Origin: Corynebacterium kalinowskii
GTDB lineage: Bacteria; Actinomycetota; Actinomycetes; Mycobacteriales; Mycobacteriaceae
DNA length: 64,000 nucleotides
Reading direction: 5' to 3'
Assembly: GCF_009734385.1 (NCBI RefSeq)
Contig: NZ_CP046452.1
Coordinates: forward strand, 2,418,001-2,482,000
Part shown: positions 9,370 to 25,003 of the stretch, in pieces
How the letters are laid out: each line of letters starts with the position of its first letter
How positions within the stretch are numbered: position 1 is the first letter of the stretch
Notes under the pieces: model-generated
The model's database searches: none
What the model was told of the DNA's origin: nothing
Seen by the model: only the letters and a program-made list of their open reading frames with translations
Made by a program: the position numbers and the translations under genes

Positions 9370-9459
9370 AATCGAAATAGTATCCCTGTTAACGCAGGTG
9401 AGCAGGGTGTCGAAGCAGTCCTGATGCAGTGTAGGAGCTACTGTGGAAATTCAGTACGA

Positions 9460-9518: not shown

Positions 9519-9559
9519 GCATGATTGTCTTCTGACATTCGCAGACTTGGGAACTATCT

Positions 9560-10885
9560 CTAGTGCAGGCTCTTACCCTCGATTTCCTTCGGCACCATTC
9601 GCACTGCGATCAAGGAAATCAGGGACATGATCGCGATGTAGATACCGATAGATATGGAGTCACCCGTCTTATCAAGCAGCATCTGTGCGATCATCGGCGC
9701 AAAAGCGCCACCTACGACGGAGCCGATTGCGTAAGCAATTGATACGCCGGAAAGTCGAATTTTTGCTGGGAACATTTCCGCATATAGGGCGGCCTGAGGA
9801 CCGTAGGTAGAACCGAGCAGGATTCCCAGGATGACGCCAGCAAGAATGAACATCAGCAGGCTCTTGGTATCAATCATGATCCACATCGGAATCGCAAACA
9901 CCAGCATTGCTAGGTAGCCAAATGTAAAAGTACGGATTTTGCCAATACGATCAGCGAGGGCGCCGCACACAAGGGTGCTGATAACCCAGGCCACGGAACT
10001 GAGAAGCGTGACCAACAATACATCGGACTTCGGCATTCCCAGTACCTTCGTACCGTATGCGGAGAAGAAGGCAATGGCCAGATATCCTGCCGAGTTCACA
10101 CCCGCGAAGATGAGAGCTGCGACGATGACCTGCTTTGTGTGCTGCTTGAATAGAACGCCGAGCGGAGCTGAGGATTCTTTCTGCAGCTGCTGAAGCTCGG
10201 TGAATACGGGGGATTCCTCGACCATCTTGCGGATGTAGTAGCCAATGCCGATCATGAGCAGACTGGATACGAATGGGATTCGCCAGCCCCAAGAATCGAA
10301 CTGCTCTTGAGTGGTGAACTTGGTTAGAACCAGCATGAACATCGTGGCTAAAAACATACCTGCTGGAACGCCCACCTGCGGGAAGGAGCCGAAATAGCTG
10401 CGACGGTTCACTGGTGCATGTTCGACTGCAAGCAAGGCCGCGCCGCCCCATTCGCCACCTGCGGAAAGTCCCTGGATGATTCGCAACAGCACGAGGAGTA
10501 ACGGCGCAGCAATGCCGATGGCTGCATAGTTGGGCAGGAAGCCCATGAGCACGGTAGCGCCACCCATTCCGAACAATGTCAGGGTGAGCACGAGTTTTCG
10601 CCCGAAGCGATCGCCTAGGTGTCCAGCGATGATCGCACCGAGTGGTCGGAATAGGAAGCTGATTCCGACCGAAGCCCAGGACACAATTTGAGCAAGAGCA
10701 GGGCTGCTATTTGATGCAGGATTGAAGAACTGTGCGCCGAAGATAAGGGCTGCAGCCTGGGCATAAATGAAGAAATCGAACCACTCAATGGTGGTGCCCA
10801 CCATTGACCCTGCGAGCACACGGCGGTGTTCTGCGGTCAGTGGGGTGTTCTGAGTTGCCGCTTGGGCGGAGGCTGTAGTTGTCAT
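9560..10885 (-). CDS. MFS transporter, metabolite:H+ symporter (MHS) family
   Basis: A 441-residue permease with about 12 predicted helices. Diagnostic MHS/sugar-porter motifs are visible: GTTIEWFDFFIYAQAAALIF in helix 1, GHLGDRFGRK in the loop 2-3, and GGEWGGAALLAVEHAP in helix 5. MHS carriers take up organic acids, betaines and shikimate with protons. The gene follows paaK on the same strand at 88 bases, separated by a hairpin, so it probably imports phenylacetate or a related aromatic acid; this is inference from position, since classic phenylacetate permeases belong to another family. A strong terminator follows the gene, marking the left border of the phenylacetate island. Confidence 0.85.
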   Translation of the reverse strand: MTTTASAQAATQNTPLTAEHRRVLAGSMVGTTIEWFDFFIYAQAAALIFGAQFFNPASNSSPALAQIVSWASVGISFLFRPLGAIIAGHLGDRFGRKLVLTLTLFGMGGATVLMGFLPNYAAIGIAAPLLLVLLRIIQGLSAGGEWGGAALLAVEHAPVNRRSYFGSFPQVGVPAGMFLATMFMLVLTKFTTQEQFDSWGWRIPFVSSLLMIGIGYYIRKMVEESPVFTELQQLQKESSAPLGVLFKQHTKQVIVAALIFAGVNSAGYLAIAFFSAYGTKVLGMPKSDVLLVTLLSSVAWVISTLVCGALADRIGKIRTFTFGYLAMLVFAIPMWIMIDTKSLLMFILAGVILGILLGSTYGPQAALYAEMFPAKIRLSGVSIAYAIGSVVGGAFAPMIAQMLLDKTGDSISIGIYIAIMSLISLIAVRMVPKEIEGKSLH

Positions 10886-10921
10886 GGGTGGAACTTTCTC
10901 TTTTATGGGATAAGGAAAGTC

Positions 10922-10954
10922 GCCGGGGCATCACACCCTGTCATACCCCGGCGC
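10922..10954. repeat. GC-rich inverted repeat between paaK and the transporter gene
   Basis: The arms CGCCGGGG and CCCCGGCG are perfect eight-base complements around a 17-base loop. It sits in the 88-base gap downstream of paaK and upstream of the transporter. No U-run follows on either strand, so it is more likely a processing or attenuation hairpin that lowers read-through into the transporter than a complete terminator. Confidence 0.55.
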
Positions 10955-10973
10955 GAAAGAAGGTCCGAGGGGT

Positions 10974-12287
10974 TTAGCCCTTTGGACGGTTGTCTACAAG
11001 ACGCTTGGCCTTGCCTTCACCAGCGTTGACGGTCTCGAGGACATCAACATTGACGGTGATTCCGATTCGGTTCTTAATCTGCTTCTTCAGGTGAATTCCG
11101 GCAGCATCCTGTTCCTTTTGGGAACAATCTGGATTGCCTTCGACGGCGATGGTGAGGGTGTCCATGCGCCCCTTACGCTCGAGAATGCACTGGTACTTTG
11201 TTTTCAGTGCGGCTTCTTCCACGATTAGTTCCTCGAACTGTGACGGGAAGCAGTTCACGCCACGCAGAATGATCATGTCGTCGTTTCGCGCACTAATGCG
11301 CTCCAGGCGGCGCATCGACCGCGCGGTGCCCGGCAAAAGACGAGTGAGGTCGTGGGTGCGGTAGCGGATGACTGGGAAAGCTTCCTTGGTCAGTGGGGTA
11401 ATGACCAGCTCACCAAGCTCACCATCCGGTACTGGTTGTAGCGTTTCCGGATCCACGATTTCTGGGTAGAAGTGGTCCTCCCAGATTGTCAGTCCGTCCT
11501 TGGTTTCTACGCATTCTTGTGCGACGCCCGGCCCCATGACCTCGGAAAGGCCATAGATGTCGGTGGCATCGATCCCCAGGTTTCGCTCGAGTTCACCGCG
11601 CATGCCTTCGGTCCATGGTTCCGCGCCGAAAATGCCGACGCGCAGCGAAGTGTCAGCCGGGTCCATGCCTTCTTGGCGCATGCGATCCACGACGTTGAGC
11701 ATGTAGGAAGGGGTCGCCAGGATTGCATCCGGCTTGAAGTCACGGATGATTTGCACCTGGCGCTCCGTCATGCCGCCCGAGGTTGGGATGGCGGTGGCGC
11801 CTAGCTTCTCGACGCCATAGTGCGCGCCAAGACCACCCGTAAACAATCCATAGCCAAAGGCCACTTGTACTTTATCGCCTGGGCGCACACCGCCGGCACG
11901 TAAGGAACGCGCCACTAAATCCGCCCACGTCTCGATATCGTTGCGCGTGTACCCAACCACGGTTGGCAGGCCGGTGGTGCCGGAAGAGGCATGAATGCGA
12001 GCCAGTTGATGGTTACCTACGGCGAACATTCCGAACGGGTATTCAGCGCGCAAATCGTTCTTTTCGGTGAAAGGGAACTTCGCCAGATCGCTGAGCTCCT
12101 TAAAGTCATCCGGATGCACACCCAACTCATCAAAGACGCGCCGGTAGTGTGGCACATTGAAGTAGGCGTGCCGGAGCGTGTTTTTAGCGCGTGCGGTCTG
12201 CAGTGCGGTGATTTCATCCCGGGAGGCAAATTCGATTCCGGTTTCCGGACCGTGATGGGAGGAAGTGATGTCGAGTACGGAAGTCAT
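10974..12287 (-). CDS. paaK: phenylacetate-CoA ligase
   Basis: Activates phenylacetate with ATP and CoA, the entry step of the pathway. The 437-residue protein has the PaaK layout of the adenylate-forming superfamily: the P-loop-like IHASSGTTGLPTVVGYTRND (about residues 96-115), GFGLFTGG-type glycine-rich region, a DIYGLSEVMGPGVAQEC aryl-binding block, and ERISARNDDMIILRGVN near the hinge, followed by the small C-terminal domain. The ATG at 12287 has a GGGGGCU ribosome-binding site; the frame is open 19 codons further upstream but crosses the putative operator region. A PaaR-type palindrome lies 58 bases upstream of the start. Confidence 0.95.
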   Translation of the reverse strand: MTSVLDITSSHHGPETGIEFASRDEITALQTARAKNTLRHAYFNVPHYRRVFDELGVHPDDFKELSDLAKFPFTEKNDLRAEYPFGMFAVGNHQLARIHASSGTTGLPTVVGYTRNDIETWADLVARSLRAGGVRPGDKVQVAFGYGLFTGGLGAHYGVEKLGATAIPTSGGMTERQVQIIRDFKPDAILATPSYMLNVVDRMRQEGMDPADTSLRVGIFGAEPWTEGMRGELERNLGIDATDIYGLSEVMGPGVAQECVETKDGLTIWEDHFYPEIVDPETLQPVPDGELGELVITPLTKEAFPVIRYRTHDLTRLLPGTARSMRRLERISARNDDMIILRGVNCFPSQFEELIVEEAALKTKYQCILERKGRMDTLTIAVEGNPDCSQKEQDAAGIHLKKQIKNRIGITVNVDVLETVNAGEGKAKRLVDNRPKG

Positions 12288-12344
12288 TGAGCCCCCAGCT
12301 TTCAAGTATCGATGTGAGTAAGAATCCGCCACATAGGCAAGCAT

Positions 12345-12364
12345 TACCGACCATTCGGTCAGTT
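12345..12364. promoter_or_regulatory. PaaR operator candidate 1 (paaK promoter)
   Basis: TACCGACCATTCGGTCAGTT is an imperfect palindrome centred on CCATTCGG. It aligns base for base with three other sites in the island, sharing ACYGACC and the trailing CAGT. It lies 58-77 bases upstream of the paaK ATG, where a repressor would block RNA polymerase. Confidence 0.8.
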
Positions 12365-12417
12365 GATGTGTGACTCACGATACACCGAATGACGTGATCT
12401 GCGCCACCCCTTTTGGG

Positions 12418-12454
12418 AAAAATTAAACAAGCCCTTCGCAAGCTGGCAGCGAAG
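12418..12454 (-). terminator. terminator of paaR
   Basis: On the minus strand the arms CTTCGC (12449-12454) and GCGAAG (12434-12439) form a six-pair stem with a nine-base loop, followed by a U-rich tail (GGCTTGTTTAATTTTT). It falls 34 bases after the paaR stop and would separate paaR from paaK transcription. Confidence 0.6.
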
Positions 12455-12487
12455 AAACTTAACAACAGGGTGGCGAAATAGCCACTT

Positions 12488-13072
12488 TTACAGCTGCAAT
12501 CCCTTGAAAACCATCACTTCAACAATGTTCGCAACTTGGTCCGAATCCAATCGCCCTCCTGGCACGTACCACTCCACCAAAGAGTTGATCATGCCAAAAA
12601 GCAGGCGACCGGCCACTGCAGAATCAACTTCTGAACGCAATGCCCCCTCACCCTGGGCCTCAGCTACCAGCGAGACCAGATAGTTCGTAAACTCTCGACG
12701 GCGAGCCAACGCCGCCAGCTCAACTTCGGAATTACCTCGCAACCGAATAAGCAAGGTGACATATTGCGCTTCGGCGCACAGCGCGGCAGTGGTACCACGC
12801 ACCAAAATGTGCAGGCGTTCAATCGCCGACGCCTCAGACTCCTCACACTCCGCAACAACGGAATCCAACAATGTCAGCGCCTTATCGGTGGCCGACTTTA
12901 GCAAGTCCTCTTTTGAGGAAATGTGGTGATAGATGGCCGACTTACTCAAACCCAGCACTTTTGCTAGATCCCCCATGGAAGTGGCCTCATAGCCATGCGC
13001 ATTGAATTCCTGAACTGCAATTCGCAGGATATCTTCCCTGTTGTAACCTGGCCGGCCTTGCTTTACGGTCAT
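12488..13072 (-). CDS. paaR: TetR/AcrR-family repressor PaaR
   Basis: A 194-residue regulator. Residues 10-56 form the TetR DNA-binding domain (YNREDILRIAVQEFNAHGYE, then LAKVLGLSKSAIYHHISSKEDLL). The remaining helices form the ligand pocket and dimer interface; in actinobacterial PaaR the inducer is phenylacetyl-CoA (family knowledge, not seen here). The gene sits between paaK and the divergent paaI and has one of four shared palindromes 33 bases upstream of its own start, so it probably represses itself. The ATG has an AGAGGGAAA ribosome-binding site. A hairpin terminator follows. Confidence 0.88.
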   Translation of the reverse strand: MTVKQGRPGYNREDILRIAVQEFNAHGYEATSMGDLAKVLGLSKSAIYHHISSKEDLLKSATDKALTLLDSVVAECEESEASAIERLHILVRGTTAALCAEAQYVTLLIRLRGNSEVELAALARRREFTNYLVSLVAEAQGEGALRSEVDSAVAGRLLFGMINSLVEWYVPGGRLDSDQVANIVEVMVFKGLQL

Positions 13073-13104
13073 TTTCCCTCTTTTCGTTCCAGCAATCCTA
13101 ACTT

Positions 13105-13124
13105 AACTGACCAATCGGACAGTA
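13105..13124. promoter_or_regulatory. PaaR operator candidate 2 (paaR/paaI divergent promoter)
   Basis: AACTGACCAATCGGACAGTA matches the other three 20-mers. It lies in the 92-base gap between the divergent starts of paaR (13072) and paaI (13165), where one bound dimer could control both. Confidence 0.8.
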
Positions 13125-13164
13125 TTTCAGTGACGCGGAACACATTTGTGGTTACAGTGGGCGC

Positions 13165-13611
13165 ATGACTTACCAGATCCTATCCCCAAAAATCGCCACC
13201 GGCGATCAATTTGCCCATGTCCGCACCATGTTTAACAACGATCACGCTTCCAACGATTTGGGCTTGAAGATCACCCAGCTCTCCGACGGTCTATGCGCCG
13301 GAAGCATGGCAATCCAGGAACGCTTCTGCAACGGCCACGGCTCCATTCATGGCGGATACCTTTTCGCTTTTGCCGACTCCCTCTTTGCCGGCGCTTGCAA
13401 CACCGATGGAGATGTCGCTGTCGCAACCCACAATTCGATTCACTACATCGCACCCGCCTTTACTGGCCAACAACTGGACGGCATAGCAAGGCGCAGCCAC
13501 CAATGGGGCCGAAATGGATTTGTTGACGTAGAAGTCACCTGCGAAGGCAAACCAATCGCCTCATTCCGCGGAACTTTCAGAGTTCTGCCCGGAAAGCCCA
13601 CCCGTCGCTAA
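13165..13611 (+). CDS. paaI: hydroxyphenylacetyl-CoA thioesterase
   Basis: A 148-residue hotdog-fold thioesterase that hydrolyses CoA esters stuck in the phenylacetate pathway and so protects the free CoA pool. The family signature NGHGSIHGGYLFAFADSLFA spans about residues 53-72, with the catalytic Asp in FADS and the conserved HGG. THNSIHYIAPAFTGQQL follows, also typical for PaaI. It diverges from paaR and precedes paaA by 137 bases that contain their own operator, so it may be transcribed both alone and with the large operon. No strong ribosome-binding site is evident. Confidence 0.88.
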   Translation: MTYQILSPKIATGDQFAHVRTMFNNDHASNDLGLKITQLSDGLCAGSMAIQERFCNGHGSIHGGYLFAFADSLFAGACNTDGDVAVATHNSIHYIAPAFTGQQLDGIARRSHQWGRNGFVDVEVTCEGKPIASFRGTFRVLPGKPTRR

Positions 13612-13683
13612 GCTCACCAAATCTCATTTCCACAGTTCAACCCTTCCCCTTTCAGTCAATTTGAGACACAGGCCACAGAATTG

Positions 13684-13699
13684 ATTGACATAGATCACA
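13684..13699. promoter_or_regulatory. possible GlxR (CRP-like) binding site upstream of paaA
   Basis: ATTGACATAGATCACA matches the corynebacterial GlxR consensus TGTGA-N2-TA-N2-TCACA at all defined positions except the first two of the left arm, including the central TA. It ends 11 bases before PaaR site 3 and about 50 bases before the paaA ATG, a fitting location for cAMP-dependent activation. Confidence 0.45.
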
Positions 13700-13709
13700 C
13701 ACCCTCATA

Positions 13710-13729
13710 TACTGACCGAACGATCAGTA
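13710..13729. promoter_or_regulatory. PaaR operator candidate 3 (paaA promoter)
   Basis: TACTGACCGAACGATCAGTA shows near-perfect dyad symmetry (TACTGA...TCAGTA). It ends 19 bases before the paaA ATG and immediately before the ribosome-binding site, where repressor binding would block transcription of the ten-gene operon. Confidence 0.85.
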
Positions 13730-13748
13730 ATTAATTGAAGGAGGGCCC

Positions 13749-14690
13749 ATGACCCCTGAAGAACACTTTGATCAACTCATCGCGGAGGATTCCCGCGTTG
13801 AGCCCACGGACTGGATGCCCGAGGGATACCGCAAGACCTTGACTCGTCAGATCAGCCAGCATGCACACTCTGAGATCATTGGCATGCAGCCCGAAGCCAA
13901 CTGGATCACGCGCGCACCGAGCCTCAAGCGCAAGGCAATCCTCATGGCAAAGGTTCAGGATGAAGCTGGCCACGGCCTTTACCTGTACTCCGCAGCGGAA
14001 ACTCTCGGTACCAGCCGCGATGAGATGGTAGATCAGCTCCTCGAGGGTAAGGCCAAGTACTCTTCCATCTTCAATTACCCCGCTCGCACCTGGGCAGATG
14101 TCGGAGCGATTGGCTGGCTCGTCGACGGCGCCGCTATCTGCAACCAGGTCCCGCTCTGCCGCTGCTCCTACGGCCCGTACGGCCGAGCAATGGTTCGCGT
14201 TTGTAAGGAAGAGTCCTTTCACCAGCGCCAAGGCTGGGAAATTCTATACGAACTTGCCAACGGCACCCCAGCACAAAAGCAAATGGCCCAGGAAGCAATC
14301 AACCGTTTCTATGGCCCGGCACTCCAGATGTTCGGCCCACCAGATGACGATTCACCGAACTCCCAGCAATCCATGGCATGGAACATCAAGCGCTTCTCTA
14401 ACGACGAGCTGCGCCAGCGTTTCGTAGACATGATCGTCCCGCAAGCAGAGGCCCTTGGCCTGCATTTTGAAGACCCTGAACTGAAGTGGAACGAAGAGCG
14501 CGGCCACTACGACTTCGGTGCCCTCGACTGGGATGAATTCTTCGGAGTCATCAAGGGCGACGGCCCGTGCAACGAGCAGCGTGCCCAACGCCGTCGTCAA
14601 GCCTTCGAAGAGGGCGCTTGGGTGCGGGAGGCGGCAGCTGCATACGCCGAGAAGTACGAATCCGAAAACCCATCCGAACTTATCGCCTAA
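13749..14690 (+). CDS. paaA: 1,2-phenylacetyl-CoA epoxidase, catalytic subunit A
   Basis: The di-iron catalytic subunit of the multicomponent oxygenase that epoxidises the ring of phenylacetyl-CoA. The 313-residue protein has the first iron-binding E-x-x-H motif in [20 protein letters not shown] (Glu72, His75) and the second in [15 protein letters not shown]. The CoA-recognition region [20 protein letters not shown] precedes the C-terminus. Length is as in other actinobacterial PaaA. It opens the operon paaABCDE-G-J-F-H, with ribosome-binding site GGAGG six bases upstream of the ATG and the PaaR palindrome just before. Confidence 0.97.
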
Positions 14691-14700
14691 GGAGCTAACA

Positions 14701-14988
14701 ATGACCGAAAAGAATTGGCCAATGTGGGAAGTCTTCGTCCGCAGCTCCCGTGGTCTATCCCACGTCCATGCTGGATCTTTGCACGCACCAGATTCCGCAA
14801 TGGCACTGCGCAACGCCCGTGACTTGTATACCCGCCGTAATGAAGGAACCTCGGTGTGGGTTGTCCCGGCAGATGCAATCACCGCATCCGACCCGGACTC
14901 CAAGGGTGGCTTCTTTGAGTCCGCCCAGGGCAAGAGCTACCGCCACGCCACCTACTACACCAAGTCTGAAGGGGTGAAGCACCTGTGA
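14701..14988 (+). CDS. paaB: 1,2-phenylacetyl-CoA epoxidase, subunit B
   Basis: A 95-residue structural subunit that bridges PaaA-PaaC dimers in the epoxidase complex. It shows the PaaB signature WPMWEVFVRSSRGLSHVHAG at the start and LRNARDLYTRRNEGTSVWVV in the middle. The chosen ATG has GGAG nine bases upstream; the frame is open well before it but overlaps paaA. The stop codon overlaps the paaC GTG by four bases (GTGA). Confidence 0.95.
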   Translation: MTEKNWPMWEVFVRSSRGLSHVHAGSLHAPDSAMALRNARDLYTRRNEGTSVWVVPADAITASDPDSKGGFFESAQGKSYRHATYYTKSEGVKHL

Positions 14989-15812
14989 GCATCACGACGA
15001 CCGACTCCGCAACGAAGCAGTCCATGGGTGAAGCTATCACCGCCGAAGACATTCAAAATTCTGGGGTTAAGGCATCGGAAAAGGTAGCAGAATACGCCCT
15101 GACCCTTGGCGATGACACCCTGATCTTGGCTCAACGCCTCGGCTGGTGGGTGTCCCGTGCGCCAGAGATGGAAGAAGACATTGCCCTGGCAAATATCGGG
15201 CTTGACCTACTTGGCCACGCACGCTTCCTCCTTTCCTATGCAGGTACTGCGTGGGGAAAGACCGAGGATGACCTCGCATATTTCCGGGATGAAGAAGAGT
15301 TCCGCTCCTGCCACCTGGTGGAGCAGGAAAACGGCGACTTTGCCCACACCATCGCCCGCCAACTGTTGTTCTCCTACTATGCGCACGGCCTCTACACCGC
15401 ACTGCTGGAGTCCCAGGATGAAACCCTGCAGGCGATCGCGGCAAAAGCGATCAAGGAAGTGGACTACCACGTCGACCACGCTTCGCAGTGGGTGCTGCGC
15501 CTAGGGCTGGGTACCGAGGAATCCAAGCATCGTATGCAAGAGGGCTTGAACCACATGTGGCCGTACCTCGCGGAGCTTTTTGAAGACCTTCCGATCCACC
15601 AGGAATTGTCCGGCATTGCAGTACTGCCATCGACGTTGAAAGCGCAATTCGACGAACGCATCGCCTGGATCCTCGACAAGGCTCAGCTAGAAACCCCAAC
15701 CACCAAGCAGGCTCGATCTGGTCAGCGCACCGGCAAGTTCTCCGAGCAGCGGGGCTTTATCCTCGCCGAGATGCAGGTGCTCGCGCGTCAGCATCCCGGC
15801 GCAACCTGGTAG
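14985..15812 (+). CDS. paaC: 1,2-phenylacetyl-CoA epoxidase, subunit C
   Basis: A 275-residue ferritin-like helical subunit that pairs with PaaA and stabilises it. Conserved elements are LILAQRLGWWVSRAPEMEED (about residues 46-65), ANIGLDLLGHAR and EVDYHVDHASQWVLRLGLGT. Like other PaaC it resembles PaaA in fold but not as a full di-iron enzyme. It starts with GTG in a four-base overlap with paaB. The first 20 residues are Thr/Ser-rich and variable. Confidence 0.95.
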   Translation: MSITTTDSATKQSMGEAITAEDIQNSGVKASEKVAEYALTLGDDTLILAQRLGWWVSRAPEMEEDIALANIGLDLLGHARFLLSYAGTAWGKTEDDLAYFRDEEEFRSCHLVEQENGDFAHTIARQLLFSYYAHGLYTALLESQDETLQAIAAKAIKEVDYHVDHASQWVLRLGLGTEESKHRMQEGLNHMWPYLAELFEDLPIHQELSGIAVLPSTLKAQFDERIAWILDKAQLETPTTKQARSGQRTGKFSEQRGFILAEMQVLARQHPGATW

Positions 15813-15828
15813 ATCAAGGAAGGCCGCC

Positions 15829-16338
15829 ATGCACGAGCTCAGACCGCAATCAGCGCGGGAAGCATCACTGTGGGATGCCGCCGCGACTGTTCCAGATCCA
15901 GAGATTCCCGTCATTTCCATTGCCGATCTAGGCATCCTACGCGGGGCGCGTTTCGACGGCGAACAACCCGTCATCACCATTACCCCCACATACTCAGGAT
16001 GCCCGGCCATGGAAACGATCTCCACGGACGTGAAGAAAGCTGTCGTGGCGGCGGGCTTTAGCAGCCCCGTGATCGATCTCGTACTCACTCCAGCGTGGAC
16101 CACGGACTGGATCACTGAAGCGGGAAAGAAGGCGTTGGAAGACTACGGCATTGCTCCGCCACAGCGTCGTGAAACCGCAAGCGGCCCGATTCCCATTTCG
16201 CTCTCAGCGCCAGTGAAGTGCCCACGATGCGGGTCGCGCAACACCAAAGAACTCAGCCATTTCGGTTCCACGTCATGCAAGGCGCTGTACAGCTGCCGGG
16301 ACTGCCAGGAACCATTCGACTACTTTAAGGTGCACTAA
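15829..16338 (+). CDS. paaD: phenylacetate pathway protein PaaD (MIP18 family, zinc finger)
   Basis: PaaD is needed for epoxidase activity, probably for iron or iron-sulfur assembly in the complex. The 169-residue protein has an N-terminal MIP18/DUF59 domain (VPDPEIPVISIADLGILRGA, then PTYSGCPAMETI with the conserved Cys) and a C-terminal zinc-ribbon with CPRCGS, a TSCKALY Cys and CRDCQEPF. A strong AAGGAAGG ribosome-binding site precedes the ATG. The stop overlaps the paaE ATG by one base. Confidence 0.94.
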   Translation: MHELRPQSAREASLWDAAATVPDPEIPVISIADLGILRGARFDGEQPVITITPTYSGCPAMETISTDVKKAVVAAGFSSPVIDLVLTPAWTTDWITEAGKKALEDYGIAPPQRRETASGPIPISLSAPVKCPRCGSRNTKELSHFGSTSCKALYSCRDCQEPFDYFKVH

Positions 16339-17474
16339 TGAAACAGAAGGTGTCTTTCAACCCACTACGGGTTAGCGAAATCCGTCGCCTCACCGCCGAC
16401 GCCGTCGAGGTGTCCTTCGAGGTCCCCGCTGAACTTGCTGAGGATTACAACTACGTCCCAGGTCAGTACGTAGCGCTCCGCAAGGAGATCGACGGACAAG
16501 AAGTGCGACGATCCTATTCCATTTGTGATGTCCCGCGTCACCTTCCGACGGGTGCATCCATCATCCGGGTGGGCATCAAGAAAAACCTAGGCGGCGTATT
16601 TTCCACCTGGGCCAACGATGAACTTGAAATCGGCGAGACCGTAGATGTGATGAACCCGCAAGGTGCATTTACCTCCCGAACTCACGTCACCTTCCTGAAC
16701 AACCCTGATGAAGCGGGCGAAGGCAAGAAGCACCTTGTGGCATTCGCAGCCGGGTCAGGAATCACGCCGATCATGGCAATTGCACAGGCGTTTATGGACG
16801 CAGCCGACGATCATACATTCGAGCTGGTCTACGCCAATAAGGGTGCAGGCGATGTCATGTTCGCTGAGGAGATCGGTGACCTCAAAGATAAGTACCCTTC
16901 TCGCTTCGCAGTGCACCACATTCTCTCCCGCGAGAACCGCGTGAATCCGCTTTTCACCGGCCGTATTGATGCCGACCGGCTCGAACAGTTGCTGGATAAT
17001 GTACTCGACCAAGACGCCGACGAGTGGTTCCTCTGCGGTCCGTTCGAGCTGGTACAGCTGTGCCGCGATACCCTTTCCCAGCGTGGGATCCCTGAGGATC
17101 GGATCCGCTTCGAGCTCTTTTCCACCGGCAAGCCTGGAGATGCGCCAGCAGGCCAGCAAGGCCGCGCAGTTGAGATTAAGGAAGGCGAGGACGTCTACAA
17201 GATCACCTTCACCCTTGATGGACTCTCCGGCGAAGTCGAATCGCCAGTTTCTGCCAACGAAACTGTCCTGAATGCAGCGCTCCGCAAACGTTCCGATGTC
17301 CCTTTTGCCTGCGCCGGTGGTGTCTGTGGCACCTGTCGCGCTCGCGTCGTGGAGGGCGAATACGAGATGGACGAAAACTACGCTCTTGAGCCCGATGAGG
17401 TGGAGCGTGGCTACGTGCTGACTTGCCAGACCCGACCTAAGTCTCCATGCCTGACCGTGGATTTTGATTCCTAA
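16338..17474 (+). CDS. paaE: 1,2-phenylacetyl-CoA epoxidase reductase subunit E
   Basis: Delivers electrons from NADPH through FAD and a [2Fe-2S] cluster to PaaA. The 378-residue protein consists of an FAD-binding barrel (RRSYSICDVP, about residues 59-68), an NAD(P) domain (AFAAGSGITPIMAIAQAF, about 135-152), and a C-terminal plant-type ferredoxin domain with CAGGVCGTCRARV and a fourth Cys in LTCQTRP. All cluster cysteines are present. Its stop and the next gene are 14 bases apart with a GGAG site for paaG. Confidence 0.96.
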   Translation: MKQKVSFNPLRVSEIRRLTADAVEVSFEVPAELAEDYNYVPGQYVALRKEIDGQEVRRSYSICDVPRHLPTGASIIRVGIKKNLGGVFSTWANDELEIGETVDVMNPQGAFTSRTHVTFLNNPDEAGEGKKHLVAFAAGSGITPIMAIAQAFMDAADDHTFELVYANKGAGDVMFAEEIGDLKDKYPSRFAVHHILSRENRVNPLFTGRIDADRLEQLLDNVLDQDADEWFLCGPFELVQLCRDTLSQRGIPEDRIRFELFSTGKPGDAPAGQQGRAVEIKEGEDVYKITFTLDGLSGEVESPVSANETVLNAALRKRSDVPFACAGGVCGTCRARVVEGEYEMDENYALEPDEVERGYVLTCQTRPKSPCLTVDFDS

Positions 17475-17488
17475 GGAGCTGCTTTTTC

Positions 17489-18259
17489 ATGATTGAGCTT
17501 GAGATTACAGACGGCATCGCTGAAGTCGTATTGAATAACCCGAAAGCAATGAACTCGCTTTCAGAAGAAGCATTGACTCAGTTGTCAGATGCCTACACTG
17601 CGGCAGCTGCCGCCAACGTAAGAGCGCTCGTACTCCGCGGGGAAGGTCGAGGCTTTTGTGCAGGGCGTAACATCGCCGGCCTAGACCCCCGCGACGATGA
17701 TGCCCATGACTACCTTGCGCATAAAGTAACGCCGGTTTTGAAGCAGATGTCTGAGTTTCCGGCCCCCACTTTCGCAGCTGTTCAAGGCGCATGCTTGGGT
17801 GTGGGCCTGGGACTCGCGATCGCCACAGACATCGTCTACGTCGCCGAAGATGCCAAAATTGGCTCGCCATTTGCCAACCTAGGCGCCACCCTCGATTCCG
17901 GGGGTCATGCGCTCTTCGTCGAACGTCTCGGTGCCCACCGCGCAATGGACTTGATCGTGACCGGTGAACTGATGAATGGCGCGGAGGCCGTTCAGGCAGG
18001 CTTGTTCTCCCGCGCGGTGGCCGCTGACGAGCTGCTCGAATTCACCAGGTCGCGCGCCGTGCGAGCAGCATCGGGCGCCACTCTTGCCTTCATGAAGTCC
18101 CGCGAGTTGGTGCATCAGATCCGCGACCAACGAGTTGGACTGTGGGACTCCCTCGAGGCCGAAAACGTGGCTCAAGGTCAATTGTGCAGCTCCGCTGACT
18201 ACTTGGAGGGCTTTGCTGCCTTCCAGGAGAAGCGTCAACCGAACTTCAAGGGGGAATAG
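17489..18259 (+). CDS. paaG: ring 1,2-epoxyphenylacetyl-CoA isomerase (crotonase family)
   Basis: Converts the ring epoxide to the seven-membered oxepin-CoA. The 256-residue crotonase-fold protein has oxyanion-hole segments VLRGEGRGFCAGRNIAGLD (about residues 47-65) and VQGACLGVGLGLAIATDIVY, and the PaaG-like GATLDSGGHALFVERLG loop with the acidic residue (Asp) expected for isomerases. Assignment as PaaG rather than PaaB-type hydratase follows from that loop and from being the first crotonase after paaE; a second crotonase, PaaF, follows. Ribosome-binding site AAGGAG is eleven bases before the ATG. Confidence 0.85.
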   Translation: MIELEITDGIAEVVLNNPKAMNSLSEEALTQLSDAYTAAAAANVRALVLRGEGRGFCAGRNIAGLDPRDDDAHDYLAHKVTPVLKQMSEFPAPTFAAVQGACLGVGLGLAIATDIVYVAEDAKIGSPFANLGATLDSGGHALFVERLGAHRAMDLIVTGELMNGAEAVQAGLFSRAVAADELLEFTRSRAVRAASGATLAFMKSRELVHQIRDQRVGLWDSLEAENVAQGQLCSSADYLEGFAAFQEKRQPNFKGE

Positions 18260-18261
18260 TC

Positions 18262-19458
18262 ATGACCGCTTACCTTGTTTCTGGAACCCGTACTCCCGTA
18301 GGCCGCTATGGTGGTGCGCTCTCTAGCGTTCGCCCTGACGATATGGCTGCCCTTGTGGTGAAGAAGGTGGTCGAGGATGCCGGTCTCCCGCCCGAAGCTA
18401 TTGATGAAGTGATCATGGGTAATGCCAACGGCGCTGGCGAGGAGAACCGGAACGTTGCCCGCATGGCGTGGCTGCTAGCAGGTTTCCCGGATACCGTCCC
18501 TGGCATTACCGTGAACCGTTTGTGCGCATCTGGCATGTCAGCTATTGCGCTGGCCACTGCCATGGTGGAATCAGGCCAGGCCGATGTAGTGGTCGCTGGC
18601 GGTGTTGAATCCATGTCCCGCGCGCCATGGGTGATGGAAAAGCCGGATAAAGCCTTTGCTAAGCCGGGAGAAACTTTTGATACCTCCATCGGTTGGCGCT
18701 TTGTCAACCCAGTGTTCGCTGCACAAGAGAAGATGACCTACTCCATGCCAGAGACGGCTGAGGAAGTCGCCCGCAGGTGCAACATTTCCCGTGAAGACGC
18801 GGACGCTTTCGCTGCCGAGTCTCAGTCTCGTGCAAGCGCTGCTATTGAGGCTGGCAAGTTCGAAGCCGAAATCACCCCGGTTCCAGTTAAAGACCGCAAG
18901 GGCAACGTCTCCGAGGTCACTGTCGATGAAGGTCCCCGTCCGGGCACTACCACCGAGGTGTTGGCGCAGCTCCGTCCAGTTGTTTCCGGTGGCAATGTGG
19001 TCACCGCTGGCAACTCGAGCTCGCTTAACGACGGTGCTTCTGCCATTCTTGTTGTCTCCGAAGCAGCAGTTTCCCGCTATGGGCTAAAGACGCGGGCTAA
19101 AGTTGTCGCCAATGCGGCGGTCGGTCTGGAGCCCGCTGTAATGGGCCTCGGGCCGATCCCAGCAACCCGGGCTGTGCTCGAACGCGCTGGCTGGGCAGTC
19201 CAAGATGTAGATGCCTTCGAAATCAATGAAGCCTTTGCCACCCAATCCTTAGCGACCATACGTGAGCTCGATTTGGACCCCGCTCGCGTGAACGCCTGGG
19301 GCGGTGCCATCGCGCTGGGACATCCGCTGGGTTCCTCTGGCTCCCGCATCACCCTGACGCTGTTGTCCCGGCTCGAGGATTCGGGTGCTCAGCGCGGCGT
19401 GGCGACCATGTGCGTTGGTGTTGGCCAAGGTACAGCTATCGCGATTGAGAGGGCATAG
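18262..19458 (+). CDS. paaJ: 3-oxoadipyl-CoA/3-oxo-5,6-dehydrosuberyl-CoA thiolase
   Basis: Catalyses the two thiolytic cleavages of the pathway. The 398-residue protein shows all thiolase signatures: the acyl-enzyme Cys88 in VNRLCASGMSAI, the NEAFATQS motif, GGAIALGHPLGSSGSR with the catalytic His, and CVGVGQG with the second Cys near the C-terminus. Starts two bases after the paaG stop with a GGGGGAA site inside that gene. Substrate assignment rests on the operon. Confidence 0.92.
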   Translation: MTAYLVSGTRTPVGRYGGALSSVRPDDMAALVVKKVVEDAGLPPEAIDEVIMGNANGAGEENRNVARMAWLLAGFPDTVPGITVNRLCASGMSAIALATAMVESGQADVVVAGGVESMSRAPWVMEKPDKAFAKPGETFDTSIGWRFVNPVFAAQEKMTYSMPETAEEVARRCNISREDADAFAAESQSRASAAIEAGKFEAEITPVPVKDRKGNVSEVTVDEGPRPGTTTEVLAQLRPVVSGGNVVTAGNSSSLNDGASAILVVSEAAVSRYGLKTRAKVVANAAVGLEPAVMGLGPIPATRAVLERAGWAVQDVDAFEINEAFATQSLATIRELDLDPARVNAWGGAIALGHPLGSSGSRITLTLLSRLEDSGAQRGVATMCVGVGQGTAIAIERA

Positions 19459-20187
19459 ATGTCTGCTTTGACCATTGAATATCAGTCCGAACGAGTCATC
19501 GCGGCGATGACTCGGCCCGAGGTCCGCAACGCCATCGACGAAGAAATGGTGAACGAGTTTCACGCCCTATGCGGCGAGTTAGAGCGTGAACCACGCATCC
19601 TCATCATCACCGGTTCGGAGGGCATTTTCGCATCCGGCGCTGACATCGGACAGCTGCGTGAACGACGTCGCGACGATGCCTTGCGCGGAGTAAACTCCAC
19701 CATTTTCCGCAGGTTAGCGCAACTACCGATGCCGGTAATTGCAGCCATTGACGGGTACGCGCTCGGCGGCGGAGCGGAACTTGCTCTTGCCGCTGATTTC
19801 CGCGTGGGCACCCCACGCATCAAAGTTGGTCAGCCCGAAACAGGCCTCGGCATCATGGCAGCAGCCGGCGCACTCTGGCGTCTGAAAGAAGTTGTGGGCG
19901 AGCCGATGGCGAAAGAGATCCTCTTCACCGGCCGCATTCTCACCGCAGACGAGGCTCTCGCCTGCGGTTTCGTCAGCTCCCTCGATGAAGACCCAGTGGC
20001 TGCAGCTCATGCCTTGGCCGATCGCATTGCCAAGCAGGATCCCCTTGCTGTACGGCTGTCCAAGCAGGTATTCGCCATGCCGACGTCCGCACATCCATAT
20101 GTAGACAACATCGCCCAAGCCATTTGCTTTGAATCCGACGCAAAGTTCGACCGGATGCAGGCATTCTTAGATAGGAAGAAGAAATGA
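19459..20187 (+). CDS. paaF: 2,3-dehydroadipyl-CoA hydratase (enoyl-CoA hydratase)
   Basis: A 242-residue crotonase that hydrates 2,3-dehydroadipyl-CoA. Oxyanion-hole elements are IITGSEGIFASGADIGQLRE (about residues 49-68) and DGYALGGGAELALAADFRVG; the KVGQPETGLGIMAAAG segment supplies the Glu expected for hydratases, in contrast to the Asp-type loop of PaaG. The ATG directly follows the paaJ stop, and its own stop overlaps the paaH start by four bases. Confidence 0.87.
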   Translation: MSALTIEYQSERVIAAMTRPEVRNAIDEEMVNEFHALCGELEREPRILIITGSEGIFASGADIGQLRERRRDDALRGVNSTIFRRLAQLPMPVIAAIDGYALGGGAELALAADFRVGTPRIKVGQPETGLGIMAAAGALWRLKEVVGEPMAKEILFTGRILTADEALACGFVSSLDEDPVAAAHALADRIAKQDPLAVRLSKQVFAMPTSAHPYVDNIAQAICFESDAKFDRMQAFLDRKKK

Positions 20188-21017
20188 CTCTTTCACGTGT
20201 AGGTGTTCTCGGTGGTGGCCGCATGGGAGCTGGCATCGCCCACGCTTTCCTCATGGCTGGCGCATCCGTCGTCGTGGTTGATATCAACCCGGATCCGGCA
20301 CTCGAGCGGATCACCCGTGACGTAGAAAAGTCCATTGAGCGCGGTGCTACTGGCGCGGCTGCTGACTATCTTTCGCGACTGTCCTGCGTAACCTCGGCTT
20401 CTGCTTTCGAAGGCTGCGAACTCGTGGTCGAGGCAATCCCGGAGAACTTTGACATGAAAGTCTCCGCGTTCAAGGACATTGCGGAAGCTGCCCCTCATGC
20501 CGTGATCGCCTCCAACACTTCCTCTCTATCCATCTCCGATCTGGCGGTGACAACGCCACATCCGGAAAATGTCATCGGACTGCACTTCTTCAACCCGGTC
20601 CCCGCTTCGAAGCTGGTAGAGATCGTGGTAGCAGAAACAACGGCGCCGGCTCTGGTCGATAAGGCTCGTGGTTGGGTCTCCGACCTCGGCAAAACCCCAA
20701 TTGTGGTGAAGGACTCCCCTGGCTTCGCCTCATCCCGTCTCGGCGTGGTCATTGCCTTGGAAGCGATCCGCATGGTGGAAGAAGGCGTGGCCTCAGCAGA
20801 GGACATCGATAATGCCATGGTGCTGGGCTATAAGTTCCCGGTCGGACCCCTTGCCCTCACCGACATCGTCGGATTGGATGTCCGCTTAGGTATCTCCGAG
20901 TATCTCGCTTCCACCTTGGGAGAACGCTTCGAGCCACCAGCGCTCATGCGGGAAATGGTTGCTCGCGGTGAACTAGGCCGGAAGAGTGGCAAGGGTTTCT
21001 ACGAGTACTCAGATTAG
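20184..21017 (+). CDS. paaH: 3-hydroxyadipyl-CoA dehydrogenase
   Basis: NAD-dependent oxidation of 3-hydroxyadipyl-CoA. The 277-residue enzyme has the Rossmann motif GVLGGGRMGAGIAHAF at residues 8-23, the catalytic His in VIGLHFFNPVPASKLVEIV, and a single C-terminal helical domain (LGYKFPVGPLALTDIVGLD). It is the short, single-domain form; the E. coli PaaH is about 475 residues with a duplicated C-terminal region. Last gene of the operon; the minus-strand frame beyond it overlaps by four bases. Confidence 0.92.
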   Translation: MTLSRVGVLGGGRMGAGIAHAFLMAGASVVVVDINPDPALERITRDVEKSIERGATGAAADYLSRLSCVTSASAFEGCELVVEAIPENFDMKVSAFKDIAEAAPHAVIASNTSSLSISDLAVTTPHPENVIGLHFFNPVPASKLVEIVVAETTAPALVDKARGWVSDLGKTPIVVKDSPGFASSRLGVVIALEAIRMVEEGVASAEDIDNAMVLGYKFPVGPLALTDIVGLDVRLGISEYLASTLGERFEPPALMREMVARGELGRKSGKGFYEYSD

Positions 21018-21292
21018 AACATGATCATGCAGTGACCCGCCTTTGAATTCCAGTCTCGATAGTCGGAATGCTCGGGCGGGTCGCTTCTTTGTGCGGGGTT
21101 CCGGAGCCACATGCCAGTGCCAATTCTGCACAGCGCAGAAAGTACGCCACTCAGCAGAATCACTACAATCAGAATGCCAGTCGAAATTAACGTAATAGCG
21201 TTTTCGATCGAATTCTCACTCTCAAGCAGCATTAACGAAACTCTCAGACCGAGCGATCCGAGTATGTAGCCAAATGCTGCCAGAGATTCCAA
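21014..21292 (-). CDS. small hypothetical membrane protein (uncertain)
   Basis: A 92-codon frame from a TTG start, with a hydrophobic segment about residues 35-57 (ITLISTGILIVVILLSGVLS) and a polar tail. The ribosome-binding site is weak and the family unknown. It overlaps the paaH stop by four bases. The sequence between it and the thioesterase stop (21293-21534) is rather AT-rich for this window and I see no gene in it. It may be a real small protein or chance. Confidence 0.33.
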   Translation of the reverse strand: MESLAAFGYILGSLGLRVSLMLLESENSIENAITLISTGILIVVILLSGVLSALCRIGTGMWLRNPAQRSDPPEHSDYRDWNSKAGHCMIMF

Positions 21293-21534
21293 GAAGCTAA
21301 AGCCACTCTTTGGCCGGACCTGGCCTAACCTTGCCTGCTACCCTGCAGCAAAGCATCTCAGAACACTTGTTGAACATCGCTATAAACTGCTCAAAATCCA
21401 CAAACGAGGCAACGTGCGGACATTCAACAAAGACGACAAAAGGGCAAAATTCCGCCTCAGTTCAGTCAAGTGATTCAAGATTGAACTTCAAGAATCGAAT
21501 GTCCAAACTTCGGCTCCTTACCCGTGAGCTGACG

Positions 21535-21987
21535 CTAAACCCGATCCACGATGGCGGCCTCCCGCGCTGCCTCCAGTGCCGCCGACAAATCCCCCAAAGG
21601 TTCAACGATGGCATTAGTGATGCGCACGGTGCAGAGCCGCTCTCCCGACTCCTCAGCGCTAATAACTACCTCATGCGAGGTCAAAGTTCGCCCCAGCTTG
21701 ATCGGGGTCGCAACCGCTCGGACGAATCCAGAGCGCGCGCCCCGGTGGTGAGTAGCATTAATGTCCACACCAACGCACGCCTTACCCAAGGTGGAGGCAT
21801 ATTTGAGGGCAGCCCAGGAGCCGGCCATTTCCCCGAGGCAGGCCATCGCTCCCCCATGCAATGCACCCAGCGATTGACGATTGCGCTCGACAGGCATACG
21901 CACCTCAACCCGCTCGACCGACTCGGACACAACCTCAACCCCCATGCGAATGTCCAGCTCGCCGAGCGAAATGCTGATCGGTTCCAT
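21535..21987 (-). CDS. hotdog-fold acyl-CoA thioesterase in the paa island
   Basis: A 150-residue PaaI/DUF4442-like thioesterase with the hotdog signature SLGALHGGAMACLGEMAGSW (about residues 38-57) and GVDINATHHRGARSGFVRA. The start at 21987 is set by an excellent GGAGGAGAAA ribosome-binding site; the longer open frame upstream runs into paaZ. It is transcribed divergently from paaZ and shares the palindrome at 22032-22051, so it is probably a PaaR target. It differs clearly from PaaI at 13165. A likely job is clearing dead-end CoA esters such as those formed when ring opening stalls. Confidence 0.8.
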   Translation of the reverse strand: MEPISISLGELDIRMGVEVVSESVERVEVRMPVERNRQSLGALHGGAMACLGEMAGSWAALKYASTLGKACVGVDINATHHRGARSGFVRAVATPIKLGRTLTSHEVVISAEESGERLCTVRITNAIVEPLGDLSAALEAAREAAIVDRV

Positions 21988-22031
21988 AATTTCTCCTCCA
22001 AATTTGTGATCTGCGTTATACTCTACTTCAA

Positions 22032-22051
22032 TACCGACCGAACGTTCAGTA
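22032..22051. promoter_or_regulatory. PaaR operator candidate 4 (thioesterase/paaZ divergent promoter)
   Basis: TACCGACCGAACGTTCAGTA matches site 3 at 18 of 20 positions. It lies 44 bases from the thioesterase start and 14 bases before the paaZ ATG, directly ahead of the paaZ ribosome-binding site. Confidence 0.85.
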
Positions 22052-22065
22052 AACGGAGGAGAAAC

Positions 22066-24063
22066 ATGATCGTCCCTAGCTACTTGTCCGGCCACTGGGT
22101 TACCCCAGAAAACCCGAGCAAACTCACCGACGTCCAAGACGCCCGCACCGGCGAAGTCATCCATCAGGTCTCCACCGACGGTTTGGATATCGCCTCAGCC
22201 ATCGACTATGCCCGCGAGACCGGCCAGAAAAACCTAGGCGAACTCACTATTCACGAGCGCGCACTCAAGCTCAAGGAGTTGGCGCTGTACCTCGGCGAGC
22301 ACAAGGAAGAGCTGTACCGAATTTCCGACGCCACCGGCGCAACACAGCGTGACCACTACATCGACATTGACGGCGGCATCGGCACACTGTTCACCTTCTC
22401 GTCCAAGGGCCGTCGCGAACTGCCTAATTCCCACGTCATTGAGGACGGACCTTGGGAGCCATTGTCTAAGGACGGCTCCTTTATCGGAACACACATTTAC
22501 ACCCGTATCCCGGGTGTCGCCGTGCAGATTAACGCTTTCAACTTCCCGGTCTGGGGCATGCTCGAGAAGTTTGCCCCTGCATTCATCGCCGGCGTACCGA
22601 CCCTGGTCAAGCCAGCAACCCCTACCGGTTATGTAGCCGAAGCCTGCGTGCGCCTCATGGTTGACTCCGGCATCCTCCCCGAAGGCTCGATCCAACTGAT
22701 CTCCGGATCCGCCCGCACGTTGTTGGACCACCTGGACTACCGCGACCACGTCGCATTCACCGGCTCCGCCGCGACCGCCGCTACCCTGAAGAGCCACCAG
22801 AATGTTATCGAAGGTGGCGTGCGATTCACTTCCGAGGCCGACTCCCTCAACGCTGCAATCCTGGCTTCCGATGTCACCCCTGAGGATCCAGAGTTCGATG
22901 CCTACATCAAGGTCCTCTTCACGGAGATGACCGCAAAGGCAGGCCAGAAGTGCACCGCGGTCCGCCGCGCCATCGTCCCAGCCGAGCTTGTCGACGCCGT
23001 CGCCGACGCACTCGAAGCAAAGGTAAAAGACAAGGTCAAGCTAGGCGAAACCATGGGCCCATTGGCTTCCTTTGACCAACAAGAGGACGTGTCTGCGGCC
23101 GTCGCCAAGCTTGAGGCAGCTGGCGGAAACAAGCGCACGATCGGCGACGTTCCTGAGCAGGGTGCTTACGTCGCTCCGACGATCCTTACCTGGGACAAAG
23201 ACGCTGACGAGGTCCACAACATCGAGGCCTTCGGACCCGTTGTCTCCATCCTTGGCTACCGCGATGACCAGGATGCGATCGAACTTGCCCAGCGTGGCAA
23301 GGGTTCCCTCGTAGCTACGGTCTGCACCCGGACGCTTGCAAGCGAATACGCCCAAGGTATCGCAGCCCACCACGGCCGCCTCCACTTCCTCGACCGCGAC
23401 GACGCCAAGACAACCACCGGCCACGGCTCCCCTCTGCCGATGCTGATCCACGGTGGCCCAGGTCGCGCCGGCGGTGGCGAAGAGCTGGGCGGCATCCGCG
23501 GTGTCAAGCACTACATGCAGCGCACGGCTATTCAGGGCACCCCGAACCACGTCACTGCGGTGACCGGCGAGTGGCATCGTGGCGCCGATATTCAGCGGGC
23601 TACTCGCAAAGAAGGCGATCACCCATTCCGCAAGCCGTTGTCAGAATTGAAGCTGGGCGACCAGTTCGCTTCCGAACTGCGCAAGGTCACTCTGGAAGAC
23701 ATCCTCGAGTTTGCCGAGAAGACGGGTGACACCTTCTACGCCCACACCGACGAGGAAGCCGCGATGGCGAACCCGTTCTTCCCTCGTCGCGTGGCTCACG
23801 GCTACCTCCTCGTCTCTTGGGCGGCCGGACTGTTCGTCTCCCCAGAGCCTGGCCCAGTGTTGGCTAACTACGGTCTGGAAAACCTGCGTTTCATCACCCC
23901 GGTCACCTACGACGATTCCATCCGCGTCGAGCTCACCGCGAAGCGCATCACCCCACGCGTCACCGACGAGTACGGCGAGGTCGCCTGGGACACAGTGCTG
24001 TACAACCAGAACGATGAGATCGTCGCTACGTACGATGTTCTGACTCTGGTCGAGAAGAAGTAG
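22066..24063 (+). CDS. paaZ: oxepin-CoA hydrolase / 3-oxo-5,6-dehydrosuberyl-CoA semialdehyde dehydrogenase
   Basis: Bifunctional ring-opening enzyme of 665 residues. The N-terminal aldehyde dehydrogenase domain (about 1-515) has catalytic Cys296 in KAGQKCTAVRRA and Glu257 in FTSEADSLN. The C-terminal MaoC-like hydratase domain (about 530-665) carries GDTFYAHTDEEAAMANPFFP followed by RVAHGYLL, with the Asp and His expected for oxepin hydrolysis. The start at 22066 follows GGAGGAGAAAC; the frame is open for another 250 codons upstream, but that is antisense to the thioesterase. Its position, separated from the main operon and with its own operator, allows independent expression. Confidence 0.96.
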   Translation: MIVPSYLSGHWVTPENPSKLTDVQDARTGEVIHQVSTDGLDIASAIDYARETGQKNLGELTIHERALKLKELALYLGEHKEELYRISDATGATQRDHYIDIDGGIGTLFTFSSKGRRELPNSHVIEDGPWEPLSKDGSFIGTHIYTRIPGVAVQINAFNFPVWGMLEKFAPAFIAGVPTLVKPATPTGYVAEACVRLMVDSGILPEGSIQLISGSARTLLDHLDYRDHVAFTGSAATAATLKSHQNVIEGGVRFTSEADSLNAAILASDVTPEDPEFDAYIKVLFTEMTAKAGQKCTAVRRAIVPAELVDAVADALEAKVKDKVKLGETMGPLASFDQQEDVSAAVAKLEAAGGNKRTIGDVPEQGAYVAPTILTWDKDADEVHNIEAFGPVVSILGYRDDQDAIELAQRGKGSLVATVCTRTLASEYAQGIAAHHGRLHFLDRDDAKTTTGHGSPLPMLIHGGPGRAGGGEELGGIRGVKHYMQRTAIQGTPNHVTAVTGEWHRGADIQRATRKEGDHPFRKPLSELKLGDQFASELRKVTLEDILEFAEKTGDTFYAHTDEEAAMANPFFPRRVAHGYLLVSWAAGLFVSPEPGPVLANYGLENLRFITPVTYDDSIRVELTAKRITPRVTDEYGEVAWDTVLYNQNDEIVATYDVLTLVEKK

Positions 24064-24069
24064 GGGTTT

Positions 24070-24105
24070 GTGCTGCTTGCCGAAACCAGAGTTGGCAAGC
24101 AGCAC
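24070..24105 (+). terminator. perfect hairpin after paaZ
   Basis: GTGCTGCTTGCC and GGCAAGCAGCAC are perfect 12-base complements around a 12-base loop, starting six bases after the paaZ stop. There is no U-run, so it probably terminates in the non-canonical, U-tract-poor way common in actinobacteria, or stabilises the 3' end. Confidence 0.65.
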
Positions 24106-24232
24106 CTGGAAGCGGTCATTCAAGAATGTTGAAGAACTCAGTGCTTTGCCACTGATGCAAGAATCCTAGGGTTTAGGCAAACTCCCGCAGCAGTCCATTG
24201 TCACGCTCCGGGTAGGTCAGAAGAGTTCCTCG

Positions 24233-24256
24233 ATTCGTCGAAAAAATTTGACGAAT
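24233..24256. promoter_or_regulatory. inverted repeat upstream of the DUF4230 gene
   Basis: ATTCGTC and GACGAAT are perfect seven-base arms around an A/T-rich ten-base centre, about 85 bases before the GTG start at 24341. The spacing would suit a dimeric regulator; no known consensus is recognised. The rest of the gap 24106-24340 shows nothing further. Confidence 0.35.
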
Positions 24257-24340
24257 TTCAGGCTCTGCGCTGCACGAAGTTGAGACTATATTTAGATCAT
24301 CAATTTCCTACCTGCAGCCCATCCCTGAAGGACTCAATCA

Positions 24341-24991: not shown

Positions 24992-25003
24992 CTCTGACTA
25001 GGG

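Follow-up and report, generated by a model that had tools for sequence, protein, structure and literature searches.

What are four closely similar 20-bp sequences doing among the phenylacetate (paa) genes of Corynebacterium kalinowskii, and does the same motif mark further target genes in this genome? The sites lie in a stretch of 64,000 nucleotides (hereafter, the window), positions 2418001-2482000 of the single 2,510,218-base contig of this 2.51-Mb genome, and are listed with the surrounding features in Table 1. We conclude with high confidence that they are operators bound by PaaR, the TetR-family repressor whose gene lies at 12488-13072 and which would repress at each site and be released by phenylacetyl-CoA for joint induction, and that the regulon consists of four promoters.

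Sequence and symmetry of the four sites

An earlier note on this DNA, made from its letters alone, had described four matching palindromes with a common pattern. The 20-mers stand where the note placed them and align without gaps, with 14-18 of 20 positions identical between any two in the given orientation, but the palindromes are imperfect: 12 (12345), 14 (13105), 16 (13710), and 14 (22032) of the 20 positions are self-complementary. The pattern itself is not fully kept. All of its capital letters are satisfied at 13105 and 13710 only, and they are broken once each at 12345 (T for A at position 10) and 22032 (T for R at position 14). A strand-symmetric matrix built from the four sites gives 26.3-28.7 bits at these sites, whereas the runner-up in the window reaches 10.8 bits. 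This runner-up is an overlapping register of the paaA site, at 13714, where a weaker overlapping dyad begins 4 bp downstream of the operator. PaaR-type repressors are marked by operators that are palindromes of the ACCGACC...GGTCGGT type and recur in a number of paa promoters, and the four sites are of this type.

Restriction of the motif to the island

A whole-genome scan with the 18-mer core ACYGACCRAWCGRTCAGT at up to two mismatches returned only these four places, so the predicted regulon has four members, i.e., the promoters of paaK and its transporter gene, of paaR/paaI, of the paaA operon, and of the thioesterase gene and paaZ. At this strict level the random scatter of the motif over the genome that, according to the earlier note, would speak against an operator role is not seen. 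At up to three mismatches the core gave 15 forward and 15 reverse rows (counting the four sites), similar to a reversed-pattern control (12 and 14).

Looser matches outside the island did not yield further regulon members. Elsewhere in the genome a 15-mer core has one exact match (1744523), within an open reading frame (ORF) with a MoCF domain and with three mismatches to the 18-mer, and one match with a single mismatch (729588), within an ORF of 614 amino acids (aa) and absent from the 18-mer matches; only some of its two-mismatch matches were looked at individually. A wider 18-mer has one single-mismatch match (2357291; 10.8 bits), which lies between the 3' ends of convergent 351- and 238-aa ORFs, within a 124-aa ORF of doubtful standing. 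None of the places at 1744523, 729588, and 2357291 resembles a promoter. The three highest-scoring places with three mismatches were likewise rejected. The one at 2134546 scores 15.9 bits, against 26.6-28.2 for the four operators, and is within a 322-aa ORF; that at 870738 (11.9 bits) is within a 688-aa ORF; and that at 1467444 (15.8 bits) is at the stop of a 235-aa ORF, presumably YaaA-like, with no clear gene start behind it. This 15.8-bit off-island motif spans G000:C1:1467444-1467461 (L063 2445-2462) and has no clear target gene.

Conservation of the predicted operators in Corynebacterium relatives

Orthologs of the regulator (E <=1e-20) were detected in 50 of 201 genomes of the genus, including this one. 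Up to 20 kb around each of the 49 other orthologs (937,097 bases in total) were scanned with a matrix from the window's four sites alone, at a threshold of 14 bits. This gave 137 sites of at least 14 bits, none of them inside an annotated paa gene, compared with a mean of 2.9 and a maximum of 58 for 200 permuted symmetric matrices. A site was present at every paaA junction (45/45), i.e., at all 38 paaI-paaA junctions and at all seven paaR-paaA junctions of genomes without paaI in between, and also at 43 of 49 paaR-paaK, 30 of 37 thioesterase-paaZ, and 16 of 38 paaR-paaI junctions. None was found at the 399 other adjacent annotated junctions. The same promoters thus carry the motif in related genomes, a comparison that the earlier note had proposed.

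Adding the relatives' own sites to the matrix, which makes the test partly circular, recovered some of the missing sites (paaI-paaA 38/38, paaR-paaA 7/7, paaR-paaK 48/49, thioesterase-paaZ 31/37, paaR-paaI 20/38, other junctions 0/399). Together with the window's four there are 141 sites, 138 of which fall in the four junction types (paaK, n = 44; paaR/paaI, n = 17; paaA, n = 46; paaZ, n = 31); outside them are two that could not be allotted (L099, L115) and one at the edge of its stretch (L094). The autoregulatory paaR/paaI site is the least conserved operator.

Placement in promoters and proposed mechanism

Each site lies in the promoter of a phenylacetate gene or gene pair, as had been claimed. 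The paaA operator shares four bases, the last of the -10 element, with a promoter matching 11 of 12 consensus positions. The consensus scan of 12200-13800 found this single promoter against a shuffle mean of 1.3, and the match alone is not significant, so it is taken as the paaA promoter because of its position before paaA and not for its score. An operator over the paaA -10 is a steric-block arrangement. The paaK operator is 58-77 bp upstream of the likely start at 12287, the paaR/paaI operator lies in the divergent intergenic region with 32 bp between it and the start of paaR and 40 bp on the side of paaI, and 14 bp separate the end of the paaZ operator from the paaZ ATG at 22066.

By analogy with the described PaaR systems, we infer binding by this PaaR, phenylacetyl-CoA as its ligand, and repression. 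Without phenylacetate, one PaaR dimer on each 18-20 bp imperfect palindrome would block transcription, and at paaA the bound protein would cover the -10. PaaK would then make phenylacetyl-CoA, the ligand would free PaaR from the DNA, and the ligase and transporter genes, the repressor gene with paaI, the epoxidase/beta-oxidation operon, and the thioesterase gene with paaZ would therefore be induced together.

Overlapping palindromes at the catabolic operators

The number of dimers per operator is the point at which a rival account fares best. We give somewhat less than an even chance to the possibility that some operators take two PaaR dimers on overlapping palindromes 4 bp apart, as in QacR, which would make the paaA operator 24 bp and not 20. 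The extended 24-bp paaA form in relatives is TACTGACCGANCGNTCRGTNAGTA. Taken as means over the loci tested, with the broadened matrix and against random flanks, the four downstream bases raise the shifted register by 10.5 bits at paaA (31 of 46 in the top 5%), by 10.8 bits at paaK (28 of 44), and by 6.7 bits at paaZ (14 of 31), and by merely 2.5 bits at paaR/paaI (0 of 17). Extension upstream has a weaker effect (paaK 6.1, paaZ 3.9, paaR/paaI -0.4, and paaA -4.5 bits). The window's own paaA site gains 9.8 bits downstream, and passages of PMC2770484 describe the Burkholderia cenocepacia PaaR repeat as a dual overlapping inverted repeat like the QacR operator. However, the window's other sites gain little (paaK 2.0, paaR/paaI -0.6, paaZ -2.6 bits), so one dimer may suffice there, and part of the overlap is built in because the core has an internal 4-bp repetition.

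Read from the scores, the catabolic operators of the relatives (paaA, paaK, and paaZ) run into a predicted second palindrome 4 bp downstream, which is partly kept here, at paaA only. These overlapping palindromes suggest two-dimer binding at some operators. A further idea, doubtful at present, is that one repressor works with two operator grades in Corynebacterium, with extended double palindromes at catabolic promoters (two dimers, tight binding, and perhaps induction in steps) and, at its own promoter, a single palindrome that is often lost; in the window's lineage paaK and paaZ would have been reduced to single palindromes, and a double remnant would survive at paaA only. The four promoters would then be induced in a different order from one species to another.

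Four relatives without paaA beside paaR in the fetched stretch have a full overlapping double site 15-20 kb off or on another contig (G030:C1:2685290, G094:C7:93543, G146:C1:1374183, and G024:C79:85), which presumably marks a displaced paaA operon.

Association of the motif with the regulator

Of the 50 genomes that have a PaaR ortholog, 40 contain the core motif (up to one mismatch), as do 11 of the 151 that lack one (hand counts; Fisher p 9e-23), whereas a reversed control pattern occurs in 11 of 50 and 32 of 151, respectively (also hand counts). Beyond the genus, where 7 of 13 loci with distant regulators were scanned, sites of 20-27 bits accompany regulators of 29-50% identity in Microbacterium, Sphaerisporangium, Nocardioides, and two loci of Acidobacteriota, lying upstream of the regulator gene or of paaA, paaK, or paaZ. 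The operator core is common to Actinomycetota, Acidobacteriota, and Burkholderia, which makes PaaR sites useful for annotating phenylacetate genes.

Several observations weigh against the assignment of the four sites to PaaR. The consensus promoter scan gave no promoter at paaK, paaR/paaI, or paaZ; with the window-only matrix the site is missing at 22 of 38 paaR-paaI, 7 of 37 paaZ, and 6 of 49 paaK junctions; the relatives share ancestry, and their loci are not independent; and 10 of the 50 PaaR genomes have no strict-core match while 11 of the 151 others do. These last 11 genomes, without an ortholog at E 1e-20, would fit a motif bound by another TetR-family protein and not the neighbouring one, the more so as related TetR subfamilies have look-alike operators. 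We nevertheless regard this as very improbable: the motif tracks this gene across the genus, the 11 genomes are fewer than the 32 that match the control pattern, one site stands in the regulator's own divergent promoter, and distant orthologs keep the motif. Chance resemblance, or selection by the reader, is hardly credible for a motif that, under strict matching, has only four places in 2.51 Mb and that recurs at the corresponding junctions of the 49 other loci against 0 of 399 others, even though the pattern was derived from the four sites themselves and the 15-mer core at three mismatches matches 31 times in the window against 21.1 expected, a count reached by 5 of 100 shuffles that leaves the window not clearly rich. 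Operators of PaaR are thus our preferred reading; an operator role, which the earlier note had judged very likely, is what the paa genes, the TetR gene in the island, the genomic restriction, and the relatives' promoters all point to.

The identical 18-mer ACTGACCGAACCATCGGT, perhaps the operator of another TetR regulator, occurs in two genomes in which no PaaR ortholog passed the cut-off (G026:C1:1793201-1793218, L183; G082:C26:188851-188868). An off-cluster match in a further relative (G141:C1:859854, L165; 11.8 bits) was rejected, tblastn with the window genes having found none around it. Upstream of two Acidobacteriota TetR genes (~30% identity; L131 ~9908 and L132 ~9909) is a near-perfect TACCGACCGG(A/C)CGGTCGGTA. 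Near these two genes, tblastn with the genes of the window gave a weak PaaK match in L131 and no other paa homologue.

CRP/GlxR-like sites beside the operators

GlxR and CRP-like regulators recognize the consensus TGTGA-N6-TCACA. When the region from -100 to +15 around each operator was searched for its best match and 8 or more of the 10 positions were required, CRP-like sites were detected at 41 of 44 paaK, 44 of 46 paaA, 22 of 31 paaZ, and 9 of 17 paaR/paaI promoters, compared with 5-7% in first-order resampled controls, counts to which core promoter elements may contribute. The best matches in the window reach 8 of 10 at paaK, paaA, and paaZ, and 6 at paaR/paaI. This hints at cyclic AMP or carbon control on top of PaaR at the paaK, paaA, and paaZ promoters; GlxR is said to take part in control of the paa system of C. 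glutamicum. The genome has three CRP-type helix-turn-helix matches above the cut-off, two of them strong and none shown to be GlxR. A marginal match of this type lies in the window itself, at ~58745-58897 (G000:C1:2476745-2476897; 26.5 bits, 27 with neighbours).

Genes of the paa island

Gene names come from an NCBIfam scan of 19 island proteins. In agreement with the earlier note, the genes that bear the sites are phenylacetate genes, with PaaK, PaaA-E, and PaaZ above their cut-offs and PaaI just below, and a TetR-family gene with both expected domains lies within the island. The likely start of paaK is 12287, which has a ribosome-binding-like GGGGG ahead of it, and not the first ATG, 12344, directly adjacent to the operator; the match to the PaaK model begins later, at residue 38 of the longer reading. 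In 44 of 50 loci the transporter gene adjoins paaK and shares its strand. paaB lies in the ORF 14518-14988, with its true start near 14716 or before, and the thiolase-like gene of the beta-oxidation group is above the subfamily cut-off of TIGR01930.

The regulator gene sits between paaK and paaI here and adjoins paaK in all 50 loci, the window included. Its protein matched 17 NCBIfam models, all below their cut-offs and none called PaaR (the presence of a PaaR model in NCBIfam was not checked), and the name PaaR therefore rests on its neighbourhood, the motif, and the relatives. When it was compared with 6557 relatives (8000 candidates scored), no entry named PaaR was among the 120 listed. PaaX, the GntR-type paa regulator, had no match in the NCBIfam lists for the 19 island proteins, the rest of the genome not being searched; the same scan of these 19 proteins named none as paaY, and Rfam gave no match in 9000-25000. 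To the right of paaZ (24341-27409) are genes for a DUF4230 protein and for a large one whose C-terminal domain is of the phosphatidylglycerol lysyltransferase (MprF-like) type.

Table 1 Predicted operators, promoter elements, and genes of the paa island, in window coordinates
Feature	Position	Strand	Sequence or evidence
MFS transporter, probably in one transcript with paaK; metabolite/H+ symporter type, below cut-off	9560..10885	-	Profile search
paaK, phenylacetate-CoA ligase	10974..12287	-	TIGR02155 647.8 bits, cut-off 646.3 (scanned from 12344)
PaaR operator (predicted) serving paaK and the MFS gene that follows	12345..12364	-	TACCGACCATTCGGTCAGTT; 26.5 bits
CRP-like sites beside the paaK, paaA, and paaZ operators	12369-12384, 13662-13677, 13684-13699, 22005-22020		8/10 each; 13684 counted by eye
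paaR, TetR-family repressor, 194 aa	12488..13072	-	TetR_N (PF00440) and TetR_C_24 (PF17932), both above cut-off
PaaR operator (predicted), autoregulatory, between divergent paaR and paaI	13105..13124	.	AACTGACCAATCGGACAGTA; 26.3 bits
paaI, hotdog thioesterase	13165..13611	+	TIGR02286 115 bits, just below cut-off 118.9; TIGR00369 above cut-off
paaA promoter TTGACA-17-TATACT, 11/12 consensus	13685..13713	+	Consensus promoter scan
PaaR operator (predicted) of the paaA operon, overlapping the promoter -10	13710..13729	+	TACTGACCGAACGATCAGTA; 28.7 bits
paaABCDE, phenylacetyl-CoA epoxidase subunits	13749..17474	+	PaaA, PaaC, PaaD, PaaE above cut-off; PaaB TIGR02157 123.2 bits, above cut-off
Two enoyl-CoA hydratase/isomerase genes, 3-oxoadipyl-CoA thiolase-like gene, 3-hydroxyacyl-CoA dehydrogenase	17489..21017	+	Below equivalog cut-offs
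Hotdog thioesterase, second in the island, divergent from paaZ	21535..21987	-	TIGR00369 above cut-off
PaaR operator (predicted) between the divergent thioesterase gene and paaZ	22032..22051	+	TACCGACCGAACGTTCAGTA; 27.1 bits
paaZ, bifunctional ring-opening enzyme	22066..24063	+	TIGR02278 1045 bits, cut-off 562.8

Comparison with known PaaR systems

Among PDB relatives of the regulator, the best-scoring chain is 2iai (SCO3833; E 2.9e-42), titled a putative regulator and presumably from Streptomyces coelicolor; the TetR protein 3vpr (E 3.7e-21, 79 bits), which we take to be PaaR of Thermus thermophilus HB8, was also matched. The PaaR motif of C. glutamicum is reportedly a 22-bp ACTNACCGNNCGNNCGGTNAGT, though a text search of the literature available found no such motif. 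Some relatives' paaA operators fit this motif (e.g., L078) and the window's paaA site fits it in part; a motif of this kind would agree with the extended, overlapping operator. In comparison with C. glutamicum PaaR, set against it by description and not by sequence, a length of 18-20 bp suits the window's sites best.

PaaR of C. glutamicum AS 1.542 is the described regulator of the paa genes (Chen et al. 2012, AEM 78:5796, as cited in passages of PMC8864220, PMC13186573, and PMC9493321), and this system, in the same genus, has a transporter-paaK pair (paaTK), as here. In B. cenocepacia K56-2, passages of PMC2770484 describe PaaR (BCAL0210) as a TetR repressor whose operator ACCGACCGGTCGGT is needed for repression, as seen by mutation, and report from a genome scan that the repeat is specific to the paa clusters. 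The B. cenocepacia operator has the same half-site as the window's sites and likewise occurs in several paa promoters, but as described there it is a shorter, 15-bp repeat between -35 and -10, and the paa genes are in several separate clusters. PaaR of T. thermophilus HB8, distant in sequence, is described in part of PMC9493321 as a TetR repressor responsive to phenylacetyl-CoA, its effector. PaaR-type control is already published for C. glutamicum and B. cenocepacia, and the window's case is an ordinary further example that raises no new question of principle; what it adds is a well-supported PaaR regulon predicted across a whole Corynebacterium genome, with the motif tested over 50 loci.

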